Source: an uncultured Bacilli bacterium (GTDB lineage Bacteria > Bacillota_I > Bacilli_A > RF39 > UBA660). Taken from it: a DNA stretch of 44,999 nt. The stretch is from contig CANRCZ010000010.1 of assembly GCA_947629265.1 (NCBI GenBank), forward strand, positions 1 to 44,999, given 5' to 3'. The position numbers and the translations under genes were made by a program. Below are positions 15,642 to 25,294 of this stretch, piece after piece; the stretch's first letter is position 1; the number at the start of each line of letters is the position of its first letter. The notes below the pieces were generated by a model. It was not told where the DNA came from. It worked only from the letters and a program-made list of their open reading frames with translations, and did not search any database.

Positions 15642-15669
15642 TTGACAAATGTGTAATTTTTGTGATAAC
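15642..15669 (+). promoter_or_regulatory. Promoter of the first tandem surface protein
   Basis: TTGACA (15642-15647), 16 bases, GATAAC (15664-15669) with TG just before it. The -35 context GATTGACA is shared with the poly-G promoter at 17850. Confidence 0.55.
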
Positions 15670-15748
15670 ATAAAATTGTTATCATAGAGAGAGTAGGATA
15701 ATGTACAATTGCTGTATGATGATAGTACTTAGGAGAGGAAGAAATAAA

Positions 15749-17065
15749 ATGAAATTAAGAAAAATATTGTTAATTGCATTAGCACTATCAAGTATGTTTA
15801 TTACTATTAACGCTAGTGCATTAGAGGGTTCAGGTAGTTCAACTACTACAAAGACACTTGCAGATTTAACTGATGCAGAATTCAAAAAAATTGTACCAGA
15901 ATCATTTGACGTAAGTTTTACTAAGTCTGCGTACATAAGTGCTGTTTATGATACATACATAAACGATAATAACGAGTCTTTAAAAGCATTAAAAAACGAT
16001 ACTAGTATAACTGGTTTAAAGGCAAAAATAATCGACCTTTTAAAACAAAATGGGTATTCAGCAGATAACGTTACAGTTGGAAATGAAACTTACAGTTTAA
16101 ATGTTGAGTTACTACCATTCGATGTACCTGCAGTATATGTTTATATTCTAGTTGAAACTAAAGATGCAAACGGGCATATTGCAGATCAACAACATGAATT
16201 ATATGTAAAAATGAACTATGCTAAAGAGTCAAATTATAATGAACAAGACGCAGCCTACGTTAAAAAAGCTGTTGATGGAATTAAATTAACAACTTATAAT
16301 GGCCGCTATGTTGCATTTTCAACTTATAGTTCTTTAGATGATCTTGTTAAAGTTGATGCTTCAGAAGAAGAATTAGCTAATCAAAAATTACCTTATAATA
16401 ATTTTAGTGAATTATTAGATGATAAATCAATAACCGTTAAACCTACGGTATATTGGGGAGATATAGATGGTTTAGAAGATTCAGAAATATATGTTACTAA
16501 TTATCTTTCTTACTATGATATATCATTAAATTTCTATAAAAATGACGTTTTATATGAAACAAAGGTAGTACGTGTTGGTTCAATGCTTGGTGTAACTTTA
16601 GATAATGGAACCGCTGTAAATATAGCACCAATCGAAGAAGATGATAAAACCTATACAGAAATGGTAGCAAAATTAAAAAAAGATGGTTTTAATAATACTA
16701 TTGGTGCATATGAATTAGAAGCTTACGGTCCAACAACTAAAGGAATGAAATTTACATTAGACGTAGACAAAAAATATAATGATAAAAATGTTATAATTTT
16801 ACATAAAAAGAAAGATAACACTTATGAGACATTAAAAGGTACTGTTAAAGATGGAAAAGTTACCATAACTGTTGATGAATTATCACCATTTGTTATAGCA
16901 TTAGATGATAAAACAACAGGTAAAACTGTAACTAAAGTATCAGATGAAAAATCTAATAATGCTCAAACCTCATCATTTAGTGTTATACCTTATATAGCGA
17001 TAGCAATTGGTTCATTATTATTACTAGTTGGTTTAATTATTAAATGGAAAAGGAAAGTAGCGTAA
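15749..17065 (+). CDS. Tandem surface protein 1 (signal peptide, C-terminal membrane anchor, NAQTS sorting-like motif)
   Basis: The protein is 438 aa. The ATG at 15749 follows AGGAGAGG; the frame upstream is not needed. It has a signal peptide (KILLIALALSSMFITINASA, cleaved after ASA), an extracellular beta-rich region, a conserved module YYDISLNFYKNDVLYETK through KDGKVTITVDELSPFVIAL (about residues 255-390) and a C-terminal hydrophobic helix ending KWKRKVA. Before that helix is NNAQTSS, similar to the NPQTN signals cut by class B sortases. It is followed after a hairpin by the sortase gene, so it is the likely sortase substrate. It is paralogous to the proteins at 17912 and 19344. Its ligand is unknown. 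Confidence 0.82.
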   Translation: MKLRKILLIALALSSMFITINASALEGSGSSTTTKTLADLTDAEFKKIVPESFDVSFTKSAYISAVYDTYINDNNESLKALKNDTSITGLKAKIIDLLKQNGYSADNVTVGNETYSLNVELLPFDVPAVYVYILVETKDANGHIADQQHELYVKMNYAKESNYNEQDAAYVKKAVDGIKLTTYNGRYVAFSTYSSLDDLVKVDASEEELANQKLPYNNFSELLDDKSITVKPTVYWGDIDGLEDSEIYVTNYLSYYDISLNFYKNDVLYETKVVRVGSMLGVTLDNGTAVNIAPIEEDDKTYTEMVAKLKKDGFNNTIGAYELEAYGPTTKGMKFTLDVDKKYNDKNVIILHKKKDNTYETLKGTVKDGKVTITVDELSPFVIALDDKTTGKTVTKVSDEKSNNAQTSSFSVIPYIAIAIGSLLLLVGLIIKWKRKVA

Positions 17066-17084: not shown

Positions 17085-17828
17085 ATGAAAGAATTAAGAC
17101 CAATTCCCGTAATGACATTAATTTTAGTTTGTATTATTTCTATTCTTAAAGTAGTTACATATTACGAAGATTTGAATAAAACAACTGAAACTAATGAAAT
17201 ACTAATCGAAAAAGTTGTAAACACTAAAATTAATAAAACAACTAAAAAAGAAGAAATAAAAATTGATTTTGATAAACTAAAGAAAACTAATAGTGATACC
17301 GTCGGTTGGATTAAATTAAATCAAAACAAAATAAATAATCCGATCGTTCAATCAAAAGATAATTCATACTATTTAACTAGATCATTCAATAAAAAACCAA
17401 GTCAAGTTGGTACAATATTCATGGATTATCGTAATAAATCATTTGATGATCAAAACGTTGTCATATTTGGTCATGCTATTAAAGATGGTACGATGTTTGG
17501 TTCGTTAGTTGATATATTTAAAAAAGATTATTTTAGTAAAAAAGAAAATAACTATATTCAAATAATCGATACTAATAACAAAGTACTAACATATCAAATT
17601 TTCAGTTATTACATTACTGAAAAAGAAGAATATTATATAACACCATCATTTAAAACCGATAAAGAATTTACAACTTTCTTAAATACTATCAAAAAAAGAA
17701 GCAACAAAAATTTTAATATTGAACTAACTAAAGATGATCATATTTTAACCCTATCAACTTGTGTTGGAGTAGGTGAAACAACAAGAAGAAGAGTTATCCA
17801 TGCTAAAAGAATTGATAACTTAAAATAA
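17085..17828 (+). CDS. srtB: Class B sortase
   Basis: The protein is 247 aa. It has an N-terminal membrane helix (about residues 8-26). The catalytic domain carries VGWIKLNQNKINNPIVQ, the active-site histidine in VVIFGHAIKDGTMFGSL, the cysteine in LTLSTCVG and the arginine region TTRRRVIHAKR. GHxxKDGTMF together with TLSTC is the class B pattern. The enzyme cuts sorting signals and attaches proteins to the wall or builds pili. It lies directly behind surface protein 1. No clear ribosome-binding site precedes the ATG, and a damaged copy of its 3' end lies at 19196-19287. Confidence 0.92.
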   Translation: MKELRPIPVMTLILVCIISILKVVTYYEDLNKTTETNEILIEKVVNTKINKTTKKEEIKIDFDKLKKTNSDTVGWIKLNQNKINNPIVQSKDNSYYLTRSFNKKPSQVGTIFMDYRNKSFDDQNVVIFGHAIKDGTMFGSLVDIFKKDYFSKKENNYIQIIDTNNKVLTYQIFSYYITEKEEYYITPSFKTDKEFTTFLNTIKKRSNKNFNIELTKDDHILTLSTCVGVGETTRRRVIHAKRIDNLK

Positions 17829-17849
17829 GTTAAAATTTTCACAAACTGA

Positions 17850-17880
17850 TTGACAAAAAAGCTCGGGGGGGGGGTATAAT
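17850..17880 (+). promoter_or_regulatory. Phase-variable promoter of tandem surface protein 2 (G10 in the spacer)
   Basis: A perfect TTGACA (17850-17855) and a perfect TATAAT (17875-17880) are separated by 19 bases, ten of which are consecutive Gs (17865-17874). The optimum for the main sigma factor is 17, which needs G8. The corresponding promoter of paralogue 3 (19283-19311) has a 17-base spacer with only GGG. Loss or gain of G should change transcription strongly; at G10 it is probably weak. Confidence 0.85.
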
Positions 17881-17911
17881 AAACTTGTTAATAGATTGAG
17901 GAGAGGAAAAA

Positions 17912-19177
17912 ATGAAATTAAAAAAAATATTGTTAATTGCGTTAGCAGTATCAAGTATGTTCTTTACTGTTAATGCTAGTGCCCTAGAAGATACTGAAAA
18001 TCAACAAAAACAACAAGAAAGTACCACTACAAAATCACTTGCAAATATAACAGAAGAAGAATTTAAAAAAATCGTACCAGAATCATTTAATGTAAATTTT
18101 ACTAGATCTGAACATGCAAATGCGGTTTATGAGTCAGAATTGAAAAAAGATGATAAACGTTTAAATGCGTTAAATTTAGATGCTCTTGAAGATGAGTTCA
18201 AAAAACAGCTTGACAAGGTTTTTGAAGAGAATGGATATTCAACAAATGAAAAAGTTGAAAATGCAGATTACTACGTAGATTTGACTTTATTTTCACTATT
18301 TTCACCAAAAGAGGATATAGTATCTGTTTCCCTTGTGAAAGACATTGGAAAAAATTTTCAAATAAAAGACGTATATACAATAAATGCAAAAATCAACTAT
18401 GCCAAAGAACCAAACTATAATGAACAAGATGCAGCTTATGTTAAAAAAGCTATTGAAAATATTAAATTAAAAACCTATAAAGATGGTTATTATTCATTTG
18501 TAACTAGCGAAAATTCAAATGATATTCTTGATACATTCGCTACTGATGAACAATTAAAAAATAAGATTTTACCATATGATAATTTATTAGATGACAAATC
18601 AATAGTCATTAAGCCTGTACCATATTTTAATGATTATAATTGGAAATTTGACGATGAGTATCTTTCTTACTATGATATGTCATTAAATTTCTATAAGAAT
18701 GACGTTTTATATGAAACAAAGATAGTACGTGTTGGAACAATGTATGGTGTAACTTTAGGTAACGGAACCATGGTAAATATAAGACCAATTGAAAAATCTG
18801 ATAAGACTTATACAGAAATGGTATCAAAATTAAAAAAAGATGGTTACAATACAGCTATTAATGGATATGAATTAAAAGCTTACGGTTCAACAACTAAAGG
18901 AATGAAATTTACATTAAATGTCGATAAAAAATATAATGGTAAAAACGTTGTAGTTTTACATAAAAAAGCAAATGGTACATATGAAACATTAAAAGGTACT
19001 GTTAAAGATGGAAAAGTTACCATAACTGTCGATGAATTATCACCATTTATGATAGCTTTAGATGATAGAACAATCGTAACTAAAATATTAAATCAAAAAT
19101 CAATCACTATCGCTGCCGTTGTAATATTATTATTACTAGTTATATTGGTTGTTAAATCAAAAAAGAAAGCAGCTTAA
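17912..19177 (+). CDS. Tandem surface protein 2, transcribed from the poly-G promoter
   Basis: The protein is 421 aa. It has a signal peptide (KILLIALAVSSMFFTVNASA), a region LANITEEEFKKIVPESFNVNF shared by all three paralogues, the module YYDMSLNFYKNDVLYETK ... KDGKVTITVDELSPFMIAL, and a C-terminal membrane helix (ITIAAVVILLLLVILVV) with KSKKKAA as the cytoplasmic tail. Unlike paralogue 1 it has no NxQTx-like motif before the helix (VTKILNQKS instead), so it may stay membrane-anchored. GAGGAGAGG precedes the ATG. Expression is likely set by the G-tract length in its promoter. The function is unknown; adhesion or immune variation is a guess from topology and context. Confidence 0.82.
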   Translation: MKLKKILLIALAVSSMFFTVNASALEDTENQQKQQESTTTKSLANITEEEFKKIVPESFNVNFTRSEHANAVYESELKKDDKRLNALNLDALEDEFKKQLDKVFEENGYSTNEKVENADYYVDLTLFSLFSPKEDIVSVSLVKDIGKNFQIKDVYTINAKINYAKEPNYNEQDAAYVKKAIENIKLKTYKDGYYSFVTSENSNDILDTFATDEQLKNKILPYDNLLDDKSIVIKPVPYFNDYNWKFDDEYLSYYDMSLNFYKNDVLYETKIVRVGTMYGVTLGNGTMVNIRPIEKSDKTYTEMVSKLKKDGYNTAINGYELKAYGSTTKGMKFTLNVDKKYNGKNVVVLHKKANGTYETLKGTVKDGKVTITVDELSPFMIALDDRTIVTKILNQKSITIAAVVILLLLVILVVKSKKKAA

Positions 19178-19190
19178 ACTGCTTCTTTTA
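19163..19190 (+). terminator. Terminator of tandem surface protein 2
   Basis: GCAG CTTAAA CTGC extended by an A-rich/T-rich flank (AAGAAA / TTCTTTT). The stop codon is in the loop. Confidence 0.6.
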
Positions 19191-19195
19191 GTAAA

Positions 19196-19287
19196 AAAAT
19201 AAAAAAAGAAGAAATTAAAATTTCAATATTGAGCTAACTAAAGATGATCATAATTTAACCCTATCAACCTATATTGGAATAGTTGAT
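19196..19287 (+). pseudogene. Remnant of a duplicated sortase gene
   Basis: The bases from AAAAAAAGAAG through CTAACTAAAGATGATCATAA to CTATCAACCTATATTGGA align almost base for base with the 3' part of the intact sortase gene (about 17691-17775). The catalytic cysteine codon TGT (17760-17762) corresponds to TAT here, and the rest of the gene is gone. The fragment shows that a surface-protein-plus-sortase unit was duplicated and the second sortase decayed. Confidence 0.8.
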
Positions 19288-19311
19288 AAAAAGATTGGGT
19301 AAAATTATAAT
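19283..19311 (+). promoter_or_regulatory. Promoter of tandem surface protein 3
   Basis: TTGATA (19283-19288), 17 bases, TATAAT (19306-19311), then AAACTTGTTA as in the poly-G promoter. The -35 is made from sequence at the edge of the sortase remnant. The spacer has GGG where the sister promoter has G10. Confidence 0.75.
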
Positions 19312-19343: not shown

Positions 19344-20588
19344 ATGAAACTAAAAAAAATATTGTTAATTGCATTGGCACTATCAAGTATGTTCTTTACT
19401 ATTAACGCTAGTGCAGTAGAAAGTAAAACTACTAAAAAATCATTTGCAAATATAACCGAAGAAGAATTTAAAAAAATCTTACCAGCGGCATTTAATGTAA
19501 GTTTTACTAAATCTGAATATGTAAGTGCTATTTACGAGGCAGAATTAAAAGAAGATGAGACACGCTTAAACGCGCTAAATTTAGAAGACGTTGAAGCTGA
19601 GCTTCAAAAACAACTTGAAAAAATTGTTAAAGAGAATGGCTATTCACCAATTGAAAAAAACGGGAATGAAACTTATTCATTATACGTAAATTTAGATCCG
19701 GCAACAGAAGATATAGTATTTATTGATTTATTTAAAGATACAGAAGAAAGTATTATTCCTCAAAGAGATATGTATGAAACAACTGTAAAGATTAATTATG
19801 CTAAAGAACCAAACTATAACGAACAAGATGCAGCTTACGTTAAAAAGGCCGTTGCTGGTCTAAAATTAAACACTTATAACGATGGTTATTGTTCATTTGT
19901 AACTTACGACAATTTAAACGATATTCTTCATACATTCGCTACAGACGAAGAATTAAAAAATAAAATTTTACCATACGATAATTTATTAGATGATAAATCA
20001 ATAATCGTTAAACCCACATCTACAGCATATTCTGATAAATCAGAAGATGATATGGATCTCGACGATGAGTACCTTACTTACTATGATATGTCATTAAATT
20101 TCTATAAGAATGACGTTTTATATGAAACAAAGACAGTACGTGTTGGAACAATGTATGGTGTAACTTTAGATAATGGAACCGCTGTAAATATAAGACCAAT
20201 TGAAGAAGACGATAAAACATATACAGAAATGGTAACAAAATTAAAAAAAGATGGTTTTAATAATACTATTAATGGATATGAATTAAAAGCTTATGGTTCA
20301 ACAACTAAAGGAATGAAATTTACATTAGACGTAGATAAAAAATATAATGATAAAAATGTTGTAATTTTACATAAGAAAGCAAATGGTACATATGAAACAT
20401 TAAAAGGTACCGTTCAAGATGGAAAAGTTACCATAACTGTCGATGAATTATCACCATTTATGATAGCTTTAGATGATAGAACAATCGTAACTAAAATATT
20501 AAATCAAAAATCAATCGCTATCGCTATCGTTGTAATATTATTATTACTAGTTATATTAGTTGTTAAATCAAAAAAGAAAGCAGCATAA
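19344..20588 (+). CDS. Tandem surface protein 3
   Basis: The protein is 414 aa. It has a signal peptide (KILLIALALSSMFFTINASA), the same ectodomain as paralogue 2 (about residues 20-375) and an almost identical C-terminal anchor (AIAIVVILLLLVILVVKSKKKAA). It differs most from paralogue 2 in the first 200 residues (for example DLFKDTEESIIPQRDMYETT), while the last 150 are nearly the same, so the N-terminal half is the diversifying part or the C-terminal half is being homogenised by gene conversion. It has a fixed 17-base-spacer promoter, so it is probably constitutive where paralogue 2 is switchable. There is no sortase motif. Confidence 0.82.
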   Translation: MKLKKILLIALALSSMFFTINASAVESKTTKKSFANITEEEFKKILPAAFNVSFTKSEYVSAIYEAELKEDETRLNALNLEDVEAELQKQLEKIVKENGYSPIEKNGNETYSLYVNLDPATEDIVFIDLFKDTEESIIPQRDMYETTVKINYAKEPNYNEQDAAYVKKAVAGLKLNTYNDGYCSFVTYDNLNDILHTFATDEELKNKILPYDNLLDDKSIIVKPTSTAYSDKSEDDMDLDDEYLTYYDMSLNFYKNDVLYETKTVRVGTMYGVTLDNGTAVNIRPIEEDDKTYTEMVTKLKKDGFNNTINGYELKAYGSTTKGMKFTLDVDKKYNDKNVVILHKKANGTYETLKGTVQDGKVTITVDELSPFMIALDDRTIVTKILNQKSIAIAIVVILLLLVILVVKSKKKAA

Positions 20589-20619: not shown

Positions 20620-20646
20620 GGACACAATTTAACGTGTCTTTTTCTT
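20620..20646 (+). terminator. Terminator after tandem surface protein 3
   Basis: GGACAC AATTTAAC GTGTC followed by TTTTTCTTT. It overlaps the 3' end of the convergent gerAB-like gene. Confidence 0.75.
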
Positions 20647-21714
20647 TAAACTAAAAAGATAGATAATTAAAGGAATTATAAGAAGAAATACAAACAATAA
20701 ATAAGGATAAAAATCTATTTCAAAAGTAAGAGAACTAGCATTATTTTTAAATATACTATTACCAATTATTAACATTATAATAGGAATAACATAATTTAAG
20801 TACTTACTACTTTTAACATTAAACACATGTTTTAAACTATCAATTATATAATAATTTATAAACACTAACATAAAATAAATACATATTATCCACTGAATCG
20901 CTAATAAACTTTCGATCCTTTTAATAAAGCCTCCAATAGTTATCTTGCTTAACATATGATAACTAGGATACTTATATAAAGTCGCTAAATCAGGACCTAA
21001 AACCGTTATTAAAATAATTTCTGAAATAACCTGTATCATCGATAATAATAAATAATACTTGATAACCTTTTTATCATAATCGCCATAATTTTTAATACTA
21101 CCCTTAGGAATTATAGTTATTAAAAAAATAGGTAAAACAGTATAAGCTGTATAAATTAAAGTACCCTTGATAATCGGATTGATACCATTTGCCATAAAAG
21201 GTAATAATTTATCAAAATCCATCTGACCAAATAATCCAAAAATACTTAAAATATATAAAATAAAAGTTGTAAAAAATAAGATGATACTAACCCTACCAAT
21301 TACCTTAATACCACCTTTAAGTAGATAGATGATTGGAACAATTAATACAGCCATAATAGCATAATTCGGTGTCAAATATAAATATTCCGATATGATAAAA
21401 TTGATGATATTATAAGTTAAAATAACCCCCAAACTCATCATAAAAAGTGATAACAATATAATTATGAACTTACCTACATTATTACCAAAGATAGCTAATA
21501 TGTTTTCATTGATATTTTTATCTTTATCGATATTAGCGATTTTAACATATAAAATAACAATAATAATACCAATTATCGTACCAAGTATTGGACATAAATA
21601 TGAGTCATTTTTAGCAATATCGACGATATTATTGATTATAATACCAATAAAACTAGCGCGCATAATAAAGTAAATAATAGAATTTATTTCAAATAATTCA
21701 AATTTATTTTTCAC
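20629..21714 (-). CDS. gerAB: Spore germination receptor subunit B (GerAB family permease)
   Basis: The protein is 361 aa with about ten membrane helices and the amino-acid-permease-like fold of GerAB proteins (NSIIYFIMRASFIGIIINNI, LTYNIINFIISEYLYLTPNYA, LLPFMANGINPIIKGTL). In spores this subunit binds the germinant in the inner membrane. It is the last gene of a three-gene minus-strand operon; its start overlaps the C-subunit gene by 11 bases. The N-terminal ISY..LF-type start of the family is shortened (NKFELFEINSIIYF), but the length is normal. Confidence 0.88.
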   Translation of the reverse strand: MKNKFELFEINSIIYFIMRASFIGIIINNIVDIAKNDSYLCPILGTIIGIIIVILYVKIANIDKDKNINENILAIFGNNVGKFIIILLSLFMMSLGVILTYNIINFIISEYLYLTPNYAIMAVLIVPIIYLLKGGIKVIGRVSIILFFTTFILYILSIFGLFGQMDFDKLLPFMANGINPIIKGTLIYTAYTVLPIFLITIIPKGSIKNYGDYDKKVIKYYLLLSMIQVISEIILITVLGPDLATLYKYPSYHMLSKITIGGFIKRIESLLAIQWIICIYFMLVFINYYIIDSLKHVFNVKSSKYLNYVIPIIMLIIGNSIFKNNASSLTFEIDFYPYLLFVFLLIIPLIIYLFSLKKKTR

Positions 21715-22873
21715 TTATGACCTCCTTGATCGTTTTATCAATAGAACCATTGGATATTAATTTAATATTGACATTAACATTAGAATTGATAGTTGGATAT
21801 ATTTTATCATCCCAACTATTTTTAACTTTATTAAAATATTCATAATTATATTTATACATTAATTCCCCATATCCTAATACATCACTTTTTAATTTCTTAG
21901 TTTCAGATATCGAATTTAAAATCATCATCTTTAAACTATCTTCGATCTTTCTTTCTAATTTATTAATATTGTTAGTATCGTTTAAATCTAAGTTACAACT
22001 AGCATTTTTAAGATAAGCTGTTCCAGTTACATTGATATCGATATTTTTTTTATCTTTTTTAATTTTTAATTTTGAATTTAAAGATTTTATATTAGTTACA
22101 ACTTTACCACCGTTACAAGATACCTCTAATGACATTTGATTGACAGATTTTTTTAAAATACTTACCCCTCTACTAGCTTTATTACTTAGATAACCAACTA
22201 ATTTATCGTTTTTAAATACCCCGATATTGGAAATTTTTAAACTTGATGATTTAATATCTTTATCATCATCACTGATATTTTTATTCGCTACAATACTAGG
22301 TAAGATACTATTTTTACCAGTAGCTAACATATCGATGATGAAATCAGTATATGGTACTGCTAAAGATAGACCAGTACTATCACTGGATGTGGTTATATTT
22401 TTATAGATCGTTTGAGATGGAAAATCTTCTAGGGGTGATAAGATACTTAATATGTCGTGAGCTTTCGTATCTTTAGATAAAATCATATAGAAACTTTTGA
22501 TTGTTTCAGGTTCTCTAAGTAGATAATCACTGATATTTGATAGCCCCTCTTTAGCTAGTACGTCAGAAACGATAATGACACTTAAATGACCTAGGTATAG
22601 TTTTTTAGGACTAGTTAACGATATTTCTTTTAAGGCTTCTGGTAAGCTATCACCTTTACCTGTATATATAACCGTATCAGCTTCTTCATTGTTGATAGAT
22701 TCATTTTTTTTAGAATTGGATATTAAAATACTAACTTTTAATTGGTCATCTTCTTTATCGATAGCCATACCTGTTACAATCGCGAGTTTATTTAATTCGT
22801 TATAATCCCAACACCCTGTTACAAGAAATAGCATAAGGATTATGATAATTATTTTATGTTTCATTTTTATCAC
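21704..22873 (-). CDS. gerAC: Spore germination receptor subunit C (Ger(x)C lipoprotein)
   Basis: The protein is 389 aa. It has a lipoprotein signal peptide with lipobox LVTGC (cysteine at about residue 21), followed by WDYNELNKLAIVTGMAIDKED, the hallmark start of Ger(x)C proteins. LYLGHLSVIIVSDVLAKEGL and the C-terminal domain with YELMYKYNYEYFNKVKNSWD match the family. It sits on the outer face of the spore inner membrane and is needed for the germinant response. It overlaps gerAA by 20 bases upstream and gerAB by 11 bases downstream. Confidence 0.92.
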   Translation of the reverse strand: MIKMKHKIIIIILMLFLVTGCWDYNELNKLAIVTGMAIDKEDDQLKVSILISNSKKNESINNEEADTVIYTGKGDSLPEALKEISLTSPKKLYLGHLSVIIVSDVLAKEGLSNISDYLLREPETIKSFYMILSKDTKAHDILSILSPLEDFPSQTIYKNITTSSDSTGLSLAVPYTDFIIDMLATGKNSILPSIVANKNISDDDKDIKSSSLKISNIGVFKNDKLVGYLSNKASRGVSILKKSVNQMSLEVSCNGGKVVTNIKSLNSKLKIKKDKKNIDINVTGTAYLKNASCNLDLNDTNNINKLERKIEDSLKMMILNSISETKKLKSDVLGYGELMYKYNYEYFNKVKNSWDDKIYPTINSNVNVNIKLISNGSIDKTIKEVISEK

Positions 22874-24308
22874 CTAATCTATTATGATTTTTAGTTAAAT
22901 TTGATAGTCGTTTAAACATTTTAAATCGTGGTTTTCTTAAAATAGCATCATCGTGTTTATAATATGGTGAAAGTGGTGTTAAATAAGGGATACCATCATA
23001 TTCTAAGGAGCATAGTTTGGTTATAAAAATTAGTAAGCATGCTAAAAATCCGATAATTCCAAGTAAGGCTGAAGCAAATAGAAAGATAATTCGCCACCAT
23101 CTTAGACCGTTGACAAAATCGATATCGGTAAATAGTAGGCCACTTATCGATGTTAGTCCGATGATGATAATGACGATCGGTGATACGATACCAGCGGTAA
23201 CAGCTGCATCACCTAAAACTAAAGCTCCAACGATCCCAATAGCGGCACCGGATGCGTTAGGTATTCTTATATCGCTTTCTCTTAGTATTTCAAATGATAT
23301 TATCATAATTAGCATTTCGATGAATGTTGGAAAGGGTACGCCATCTCTTTGAACGGCGAGGGATATTAATAATTCATCGGGTATTATTTCTTGATTAAAG
23401 GTAGTTAAGGCTACGTATAATCCTGGTAATAATATGGTTATAAAGAATGATAACAATCTAAGAATACGGGTTAAATTGATATTAACAGCTTTTTGGTAGT
23501 TATCTTCTGGTGAATGGAGAAAATCGATAAATAAACCTGGTATTATTAGACAAAATGGTGTATTTTCTACTAATAATACCGCTTTACCCTCTAGTAGTGA
23601 GATACATGCTAAATCTGGTCTTTCACTACTTATCAGTCTTGGAAAGGTCGTTTTTTCACCTTTAGTTAAAAATTCTCTAATGTAACCACTATCTAAGATA
23701 CCATCGATATCGATTTCGTTTAGTTGTTTTTCGATTTTTTTAATCATCTGTTCATTACATATATCATTTATATAGGTAATAGTTACTTTAGTTTTAGTTC
23801 TTCTTCCTACAGTTAAATCTTTAAAAAAGAGATTAGGATCTTTTATTCTTTTTCTAATTAAACCGAGATTTTTTTGATGATTTTCGGTAAAACTATCTTT
23901 AGGACCTCTTACGATAGCTTCACTAGTAGCTTCTGATACGCCTCTATCTAAGGTTGTTCTAGTTTCAATCGCTATCGCTTTAGTTTCATTATCAACGAAG
24001 ATACAAGTATAACCACTCGCTAATTTATAGAATACCTCATCGTAGGTATTGCATGTTGTTATATGACTATTTGGTATGGTATTTTTTAGTTCGTTAAACA
24101 GGTTATTTAACATAATTTTGTTACATATGTTGTTACTGATATATTTCATGAAGAAATCACTTATTTTATCATCGCTTGATACACTTTCTAGGTATATATA
24201 ACATATTCTTTTTTTCTTTATTGTTATAATTCTATTTACTATATCAGTACTGTTACCATTTAAGTTAGTTATATATTTGATAATGTCGTCAATATTTTTA
24301 TCTAGCAT
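22854..24308 (-). CDS. gerAA: Spore germination receptor subunit A (GerA family)
   Basis: The protein is 484 aa, normal for the family. It has an N-terminal cytoplasmic domain with SEATSEAIVRGPKDSFTENH and NLGLIRKRI, the strongest family signatures, then membrane helices from about residue 280 (LLSFFITILLPGLYVALTTF, ELLISLAVQRDGVPFPTFIE, ESDIRIPNASGAAIGIVGAL) and the end GIPYLTPLSPY. First gene of the receptor operon. ATG at 24308 follows AGGTGATT. Its presence shows the organism makes, or descends from, endospores. Confidence 0.95.
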   Translation of the reverse strand: MLDKNIDDIIKYITNLNGNSTDIVNRIITIKKKRICYIYLESVSSDDKISDFFMKYISNNICNKIMLNNLFNELKNTIPNSHITTCNTYDEVFYKLASGYTCIFVDNETKAIAIETRTTLDRGVSEATSEAIVRGPKDSFTENHQKNLGLIRKRIKDPNLFFKDLTVGRRTKTKVTITYINDICNEQMIKKIEKQLNEIDIDGILDSGYIREFLTKGEKTTFPRLISSERPDLACISLLEGKAVLLVENTPFCLIIPGLFIDFLHSPEDNYQKAVNINLTRILRLLSFFITILLPGLYVALTTFNQEIIPDELLISLAVQRDGVPFPTFIEMLIMIISFEILRESDIRIPNASGAAIGIVGALVLGDAAVTAGIVSPIVIIIIGLTSISGLLFTDIDFVNGLRWWRIIFLFASALLGIIGFLACLLIFITKLCSLEYDGIPYLTPLSPYYKHDDAILRKPRFKMFKRLSNLTKNHNRLGDKNET

Positions 24309-24453: not shown

Positions 24454-25294
24454 ATGAAAGAGAAAATAAGGCTTGGGGGGGGGTTATTTACTAATAATAT
24501 TAATACTATTAGTGGTAACTAATGGTATAACATATGGAGTAACTAGCATACAAAGTGAGAGCGTTAGTTACACGAAAAAAGATGGAAATTTAACAACAGT
24601 GAAGAGCGCATTAGATGAGTTAATAACTAAGTCATCTAAAGTTGATGAGTTACAGGAAAAGGTAACTGATTATGAAAAGAAAGTACATTATTTAGCTGAT
24701 AAAGTAACAGTTGGAGACTACGTAGCGTACGACGCTGGCACATGGAGTGAAAATAAAGATAGACCAACAAGTCAAGGGCAGTTCGGTGGATATAATAGTG
24801 GTCAAAGTAAAAATGCAAGTGTAGAATGGTGTTATCAAAGTATTTATAAAACGACATTAAAAGGATGGCGAGTGTTAAAAGTTGCAGGTAATCAAGTTTA
24901 CCTAGTCCACGCTGGCCAACCCGAATGTTACTATCATGCAAGTGGTGGATATAGTGATGCAAGTGTAAAAGCATTAAATGACAGAGCGAAGAGTTATATG
25001 GATGGAATATATGCAGACTCAGCACATGCTATGACTGAAGAAGAAGCACAGGCGATTACTGGTAATACAAATGCTACTGAAGATGATTTACGAACAACTG
25101 GTGATTTTTATTGGCTGGCTACTAAATGCAACAGCAACACCTTGTGGCTCGTTTATTTCACTGGCCTCATGTACGGCTCCGATGGTCGCGACTACTCGTG
25201 GGGTTTTCGTCCAGTCATCGTTTTAAAATCTGATGTTCTAACAACAGGTCAAGATAAAGATATGTTTGGAAATAAAGCATGGATATTAGCATAA
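24454..25294 (+). CDS. Phase-variable surface protein with membrane anchor, coiled coil and lectin-like C-terminus (OFF by +1 G)
   Basis: The ATG at 24454 follows AAAGGAG and reads MKEKIRL, then nine Gs. In this frame translation stops at TAA after 22 codons. The long open frame begins one base off (from 24473). With G8 the two join into a 279-residue protein: MKEKIRLGGG, a membrane helix (YLLIILILLVV), a coiled coil (SKVDELQEKV, DYEKKVHYLADKV), a middle with GWRVL and VHAGQPECY, and a variable C-terminus YWLA ... WGFRPVIVLK ending GNKAWILA. It is most similar to the gene at 13-807. It is extracellular by topology. No ligand is known. The next genes are an XRE regulator and a third paralogue. 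Confidence 0.85.
24475..24483 (+). repeat. G9 homopolymer in codons 8-10 (phase-variation tract)
   Basis: The context AAAATAAGGCTT-G9-TTAT is shared with bases 3-27. G8 or G11 restores the frame from the ATG at 24454 into the 25294 stop; G9 and G10 do not. Confidence 0.88.
25112..25212 (+). other. Candidate hypervariable segment (DGR-like) of the second lectin-like surface gene
   Basis: Bases 25112-25203 contain about 50 G or C in 92, in a gene otherwise far more AT-rich. Compared with 26501-26590, fixed blocks (TGGCTGGC, ACCTTGTGG, CATGTAC, TCGTGGGG) alternate with codons that differ at positions 1 and 2 but keep C at position 3 (CTC/GAC, TTC/AAC, GGC/AAC, CTC/GTC). That is the expected trace of adenine-directed mutagenesis of AAC template codons. 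Confidence 0.55.

Follow-up and report, generated by a model that had tools for sequence, protein, structure and literature searches.

Comparative sequence evidence for a candidate phase-variable poly-G promoter upstream of a surface-protein gene in an uncultured Bacilli bacterium

Results

Genes of the surface-protein and sortase locus

The window, i.e. the whole analysed stretch of 44,999 nucleotides, represents contig C10 in a draft genome of 1.22 Mb and 44 contigs. Three related surface-protein genes and a sortase gene lie close together on its plus strand. The gene at 17912–19177 encodes a protein of 421 amino acids, which was assigned as a surface protein from its translation, its homologs and a structure model. 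By inspection, the N-terminus carries a signal peptide, and a transmembrane helix close to the C-terminus is followed by KKKAA; such an arrangement of signal peptide and C-terminal anchor is found in surface-exposed or secreted proteins. The AlphaFold model (mean pLDDT 73) predicts a beta-rich exterior. A Pfam search revealed no family above its cut-off for this protein family, and comparison of the model to the PDB yielded no fold match with E ≤ 0.001.

Three paralogs of this gene are present in the genome: an upstream copy at 15701–17065 (59% identical), a tandem copy at 19344–20588 (414 amino acids, about 76% identical) and one copy on contig C1 (41%). More distant homologs occur in about a dozen relatives. 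In most members of the family a sorting-type motif (NNAQTSS or PKTSS/PKTG) precedes the final helix, as does NNAQTSS in the upstream paralog; the tandem copies at 17912 and 19344 are without such a motif. The sortase gene (17085–17828; PF04203, E 5e-13; catalytic motif TLSTC) is located between the paralogs, and a terminator-like hairpin (19167–19184, plus strand) lies at the 3′ side of the 17912 gene. On the minus strand the window carries a GerA/GerB/GerC-type spore germination set (20629–24308; PF03323, PF03845, PF05504/PF25198), in a genome of 1.2 Mb.

Anatomy of the promoter at 17850–17880

The plus strand at 17850–17880 reads TTGACA AAAAAGCTC GGGGGGGGGG TATAAT. A consensus −35 box (17850–17855) is followed by AAAAAGCTC and then by a G10 tract (17865–17874), which directly precedes a consensus −10 box without TGn extension (17875–17880). 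The two boxes are thus separated by a spacer of 19 bp (17856–17874), ten positions of which are G, as the sequence-only reading had described. The promoter ends 31 bp upstream of the 17912 gene, and the ribosome-binding region GAGGAGAGGAAAAA (17898–17911, plus strand) precedes the ATG at 17912, with GAGGAGAGG directly 5′ of this codon. By arithmetic, steps of one G carry the spacer through 17 bp (G10, 19 bp; G9, 18 bp; G8, 17 bp), so that the earlier statement that a change from G10 to G8 would give a 17-bp spacer is correct. Two perfect TTGACA/TATAAT pairs are present in the window (0.25 expected), and runs of at least eight G occur in three places, compared to 0.02 8-mer matches expected from shuffled sequence. 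A poly-G locus acting in the coding frame was rejected for 17865–17874, because the tract precedes the ATG at 17912 by 37 bp and is thus outside the reading frame of the controlled gene. A tract of the opc type was rejected as well, since the intact TTGACA −35 box stands outside the tract.

The promoters of the three window paralogs are homologous, and only that of the 17912 gene has the G10 tract and the 19-bp spacer. Both other promoters are tract-free with spacers of 17 and 18 bp: TTGATA-17-TATAAT (19283–19311, plus strand; −35 box with five of six consensus positions) upstream of the tandem paralog, and TTGACA-18-TAACAT with TG before the −10 box (15642–15671, plus strand) upstream of the upstream paralog. 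The relationship proposed for the promoter at 19283–19311 was confirmed: it has a 17-bp spacer and shares AAACTTGTTA after the −10 box with the promoter at 17850–17880. The −35 box starts 22 bp after the end of the sortase gene, and no terminator-like site was found between the sortase gene and the G10 promoter (17828–17850). Thus, read-through from the sortase gene could maintain expression at any tract length.

Recurrence of poly-G promoters in related genomes

A second copy of the promoter, also with G10 and a 19-bp spacer, is present in the same genome at C2:96980–97010 (tract at C2:96995–97004); the reading frame downstream of it is truncated by the contig and has a transmembrane segment at its N-terminus. 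Genome-wide there are about 47 tracts of G8 to G10, and only two of them are located in promoters.

The kinship of the window genome, in a class shared with Mycoplasma-sized families and in a family of about 180 genera, suggests RF39/UBA660. Among 386 genomes of its family, 65, belonging to 42 genera, have a run of at least seven G within three bases of TATAAT. The reversed-pattern control of this survey gave almost no matches. The equivalent C-run pattern before TATAAT occurred in 7 of 291 family genomes; therefore, the G run belongs to the non-template strand. Five genomes examined contained about 76, 34, 28, 14 and 27 matches. Poly-G promoters are also present in other families of the same class. 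Among the matches listed, those in named bacterial genomes stem mainly from uncultured Clostridia and Bacilli. The matches listed (L160–L278) also include Saccharibacteria, Ancillula, Streptobacillus notomytis, a Helicobacter and other distant taxa; given these distant taxa, the poly-G spacer device probably arose or spread many times. The TTGACA-N9-G10-TATAAT architecture is not a chance hit. In the reversed-pattern control columns of three genomes (G117, G176, G280) many G runs are followed by a TATATT-like sequence, which suggests that poly-G promoters with a variant −10 box exist in further genera.

Genes downstream of the poly-G promoters mostly encode secreted or membrane-anchored proteins. 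A strongly hydrophobic N-terminal segment was predicted for 135 of 171 downstream frames (79%) compared to 185 of 769 background frames (24%), and inspection revealed pilin-like, TasA/camelysin-like and wall- or membrane-anchored proteins among the products.

Distribution of spacer lengths

Perfect tract-free promoters from four of the related genomes had a clear peak at 17 bp (53 of 134), and 19 bp was found in only 8. Among poly-G promoters the 17-bp spacer occurred in 13 of 307 (4%; Fisher P about 6e-20 for the comparison to the tract-free set). Their most frequent spacer length was 19 bp with a second peak at 15–16 bp, and the total range in the relatives was 14–23 bp. Spacers of 15, 16, 17, 18, 19 and 20 bp were counted 19, 20, 7, 26, 34 and 14 times in the named genomes (n = 125), 8, 5, 4, 19, 44 and 13 times in the family set (n = 97), and 8, 9, 2, 16, 46 and 3 times in five additional genomes whose promoters have other −35 variants (n = 85).

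A permutation that preserves both margins, i.e. the distributions of tract length and of the non-G remainder, gave significantly fewer 17-bp spacers than expected in all three sets (7 vs. 18.5, P = 0.0004; 4 vs. 10.7, P = 0.007; 2 vs. 17.9, P < 2e-4). The 19-bp spacer was enriched in all three sets, and in the five additional genomes 20 bp was rarer than expected (3 vs. 9.8). The exact P values are optimistic, as copies within a genome are related; nevertheless, the pattern repeats across genera and in three separately drawn sets. The requirement for at least eight G conceals short spacers, but truncation bias was rejected as the cause of the trough at 17, since the depletion is significant when both margins are preserved.

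Tract and remainder compensate each other between genomes: where the non-G part is shorter the G run is longer, with a total close to 19 bp (remainder of 7 with G12, 8 with G11, 9 with G10, 10 with G9). The spacer distributions and this compensation argue, on comparative grounds, that the total spacer length is under selection. In two genomes (G349, G026) entire promoter families have spacers of 15–16 bp with a trough at 17; a single genome (G029) deviates from the general pattern, its median spacer being 17 bp.

Tract-length differences between paralogs

Paralogous promoters within the same genome, with nearly identical downstream flanks (94–98% over 100 bp), differ by a single G: G9/G10 in genome G411 (97 of 100 bp downstream identical), G11/G12 in G278 (98 of 100), G7/G8 in G026 (96 of 100) and G9/G10 in G270 (94 of 100). 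Furthermore, 10 of 18 groups of promoters with an identical non-G spacer sequence showed more than one tract length. Thus, tract length varies between paralogs of the relatives while the flanks are constant. Both copies in the window genome (17865–17874 and C2:96980) have G10. A protein search of genome contigs for a second strain or a relative of the window genome found none.

Upstream of the poly-G tracts in three genera, at a distance of 19–21 bp, a conserved element of about 45 bp (TATACACCCTCTCATAAAGTTGTCTAAAAAAATGATAACATCCC) was observed (L079, L080, L430 (G000), L101 (G026), L357 (G270)), which sometimes replaces the usual start region and is possibly a recombination site or the end of a mobile element. 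A recurrent element upstream of the tracts (GTTGTCTAAAAAAATGATAACAT) had no match in the viral contigs searched.

Coding G9 tracts as a second poly-G system

The sequence-only reading had counted the G10 tract as the third long G run, each controlling a surface protein. Indeed there are three runs of at least eight G in the window, and the other two (15–23 and 24475–24483, both G9 on the plus strand) belong to a membrane-anchored family. Both lie out of frame in the 5′ coding region of this other family, so that they are not part of the promoter switch and would act, if at all, on the reading frame and not on transcription. The tract at 24475–24483 is located 21 bp after the ATG at 24454, and this start is not in phase with the long frame (OFF).

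More than 40 copies of the family are present in the 1.2-Mb genome (window and contigs C1–C43, loci L048–L082); the tract, G9 or in few cases G10, follows the ATG at a distance of about 21 bp. All 27 copies that are distinct around the tract and have a readable ATG are out of frame with it and need G8 or G11, and 12 tract-free members are in frame. The family is either a frame-switch array that is OFF in the consensus, a case of programmed slippage or the product of assembly homogenisation; repeat assembly may have homogenised the copies. The coding tracts of this genome are a frame-based system distinct from the promoter switch and likewise OFF in the consensus. Three loci (L052, L067 near 7725, L078) carry this 5′ segment, up to and including the G9, in front of a different gene family, which would have a pilin-like start (KNKGFTL) in the ON frame; this suggests that 5′ cassettes are exchanged between families at the G9 tract.

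Discussion

Poly-G tracts within promoter spacers are known from tp0126 of Treponema pallidum and porA of Neisseria meningitidis, for which an optimum of 17 nt has been reported; in the case of porA, transcription is abrogated when the 17-nt spacing is shortened (PMC7864442). In opc the poly-C tract encompasses the −35 region instead of lying in a spacer between two good boxes, and in tprL the tract overlaps the −10 region, which leaves the spacing between the boxes unchanged (PMC7864442). The design at 17850–17880 had been compared to both porA and opc. The comparison to porA, which is of the spacer type like tp0126, is appropriate, whereas that to opc does not hold for a poly-C tract spanning the −35 box (PMC7864442).

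The promoter shares with tp0126 the G run within the −35/−10 spacer, a surface-protein gene as target (OmpW-like in the case of tp0126) and total spacer length as the quantity that would vary. tp0126 is, however, a single locus of a pathogen with measured expression, whereas the window promoter belongs to a commensal-type Bacilli relative, is recurrent and is known from its sequence. Moreover, tp0126 is optimal at 17 nt, while the consensus states of the poly-G promoters studied here are off 17. Likewise, porA has its poly-G between the boxes but is found in one pathogen; the window promoter is on the long side (19 bp), and its architecture is repeated dozens of times per genome in relatives. 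In opc the length of a homopolymer also tunes transcription of a surface protein, but this homopolymer is poly-C, and C runs before the −10 box are rare in the family of the window genome. The tprE/G/J/L genes of T. pallidum resemble our case by poly-G near the promoter, a permissive G8 with longer tracts not permissive, and surface proteins as products; the overlap of the tprL tract with the −10 region, with constant box spacing, is the difference. Campylobacter poly-G loci and Neisseria coding-tract loci are the counterparts of the 5′ coding G9 tracts in the window genome and differ from the G10 promoter by acting on the reading frame, not on transcription.

We consider it highly probable that the promoter at 17850–17880 is subject to transcriptional phase variation of the porA/tp0126 type by slipped-strand mispairing and is usually parked in a weak state. 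The spacer-slippage reading proposed earlier is strongly supported by the comparative data: the recurrence in the family, the paralogs one G apart, the selected total spacer length and the enrichment of surface genes. An unstable poly-G tract within the −35/−10 spacing of a sigma-70/sigma-A-type promoter would gain or lose one G per slippage event at replication and thereby change the spacer. The predicted promoter strength is highest with G8 (17 bp), intermediate with G9 (18 bp) and weak with G10 (19 bp), the assembled state; with G11 or more the promoter would be nearly off. The level of the surface protein encoded at 17912 would in this way be switched, reversibly and stochastically, within a cell lineage. 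We infer that 17 bp is the ON and 19 bp the weak state and that the tract at 17865–17874 slips in vivo. The spacer distribution, low at 17 and with maxima at 19 and 15–16, suggests that consensus genomes record a weak state one or two slips away from ON; the majority of the population is probably parked weak with rare ON cells. A MutS domain I was identified at C5:29329 (E 1.8e-48), and a search of 32 genomes found it in 31; loss of mismatch repair was therefore rejected as the source of instability, and a missing MutS does not add to slippage in this genome.

The main rival explanation is a shifted optimum. If rise and twist of a G-rich spacer differ, 18–19 bp could be the ON state, the conserved 19 bp would be ON and slippage would lead to OFF. 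Precise conservation could indeed mean that 19 bp is the functional state: 19 is kept more exactly than a mere OFF state would need, as indicated by the rarity of 20-bp spacers, and the compensation of tract and remainder preserves it. A single optimum, however, leaves the 15–16 bp families (G349, G026) and the trough at 17 unexplained, and the poly-G promoter of tp0126 is reported to work best at 17 (PMC7864442), so that we regard a shifted optimum as unlikely. Slightly less doubtful, and still a tentative alternative, is that most expression stems from read-through from the upstream surface-protein and sortase genes and that the G10 promoter adds a variable increment. The short distance to the sortase gene and the lack of a terminator-like site at 17828–17850 favour this, but the 17912 gene has its own consensus promoter and ribosome-binding site, and the tract would be left unexplained. 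Read-through is compatible with the slippage explanation as a modifier.

A static weak promoter, in which a fixed G run sets a low constant level without biologically relevant switching, appears improbable. It would agree with the presence of MutS and with G10 in both copies of the genome, but long G runs are the least stable way to fix a weak spacer, paralogs one G apart argue against a fixed length, and repeated occurrence at surface genes is in line with contingency loci. The G10 length in a draft metagenome assembly may be wrong by one or more, as homopolymer lengths are error-prone in short-read drafts (PMC4577077). That the length is simply an assembly artefact is nevertheless very improbable, because random length errors cannot yield non-random spacers across many genomes; that a tract exists is beyond doubt. 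Consensus boxes around a 19-bp spacer are a hallmark of MerR-type promoters, and activation by a DNA-twisting regulator of this type bound in the spacer would account for the spacing. A dyad operator within the spacer was looked for and the type was rejected: 17856–17874 contains no inverted repeat, the spacer is mostly G, its non-G part varies between genomes and families with 15–16 bp exist, which makes this explanation extremely improbable.

For the lineage as a whole, we slightly favour a poised system: at up to dozens of surface-gene promoters of uncultured small-genome Bacilli, G tract and remainder would evolve together so as to keep the spacer at 19 (or 15–16) bp, where one or two slips would reach the 17-bp optimum, and each gene would be off or low in the majority of cells and on in a minority. 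In the open-access literature no prior report of poly-G promoter phase variation in RF39/UBA660 or in gut Firmicutes metagenomes was found; most subscription papers were outside the scope of this search. The mechanism itself is already known, whereas the avoidance of 17 bp and the scale in uncultured gut bacteria appear to be new. Phase variation by spacer tracts has been known from few pathogens; the same device is found here in uncultured bacteria associated with the gut, across many genera. Existing metagenomic reads can be used to check the quantitative prediction that 17 bp is avoided, and spacer length offers a way of calling likely OFF and ON states from sequence. The bias towards surface and secreted proteins predicts extensive hidden cell-to-cell variation of the surface in commensals.
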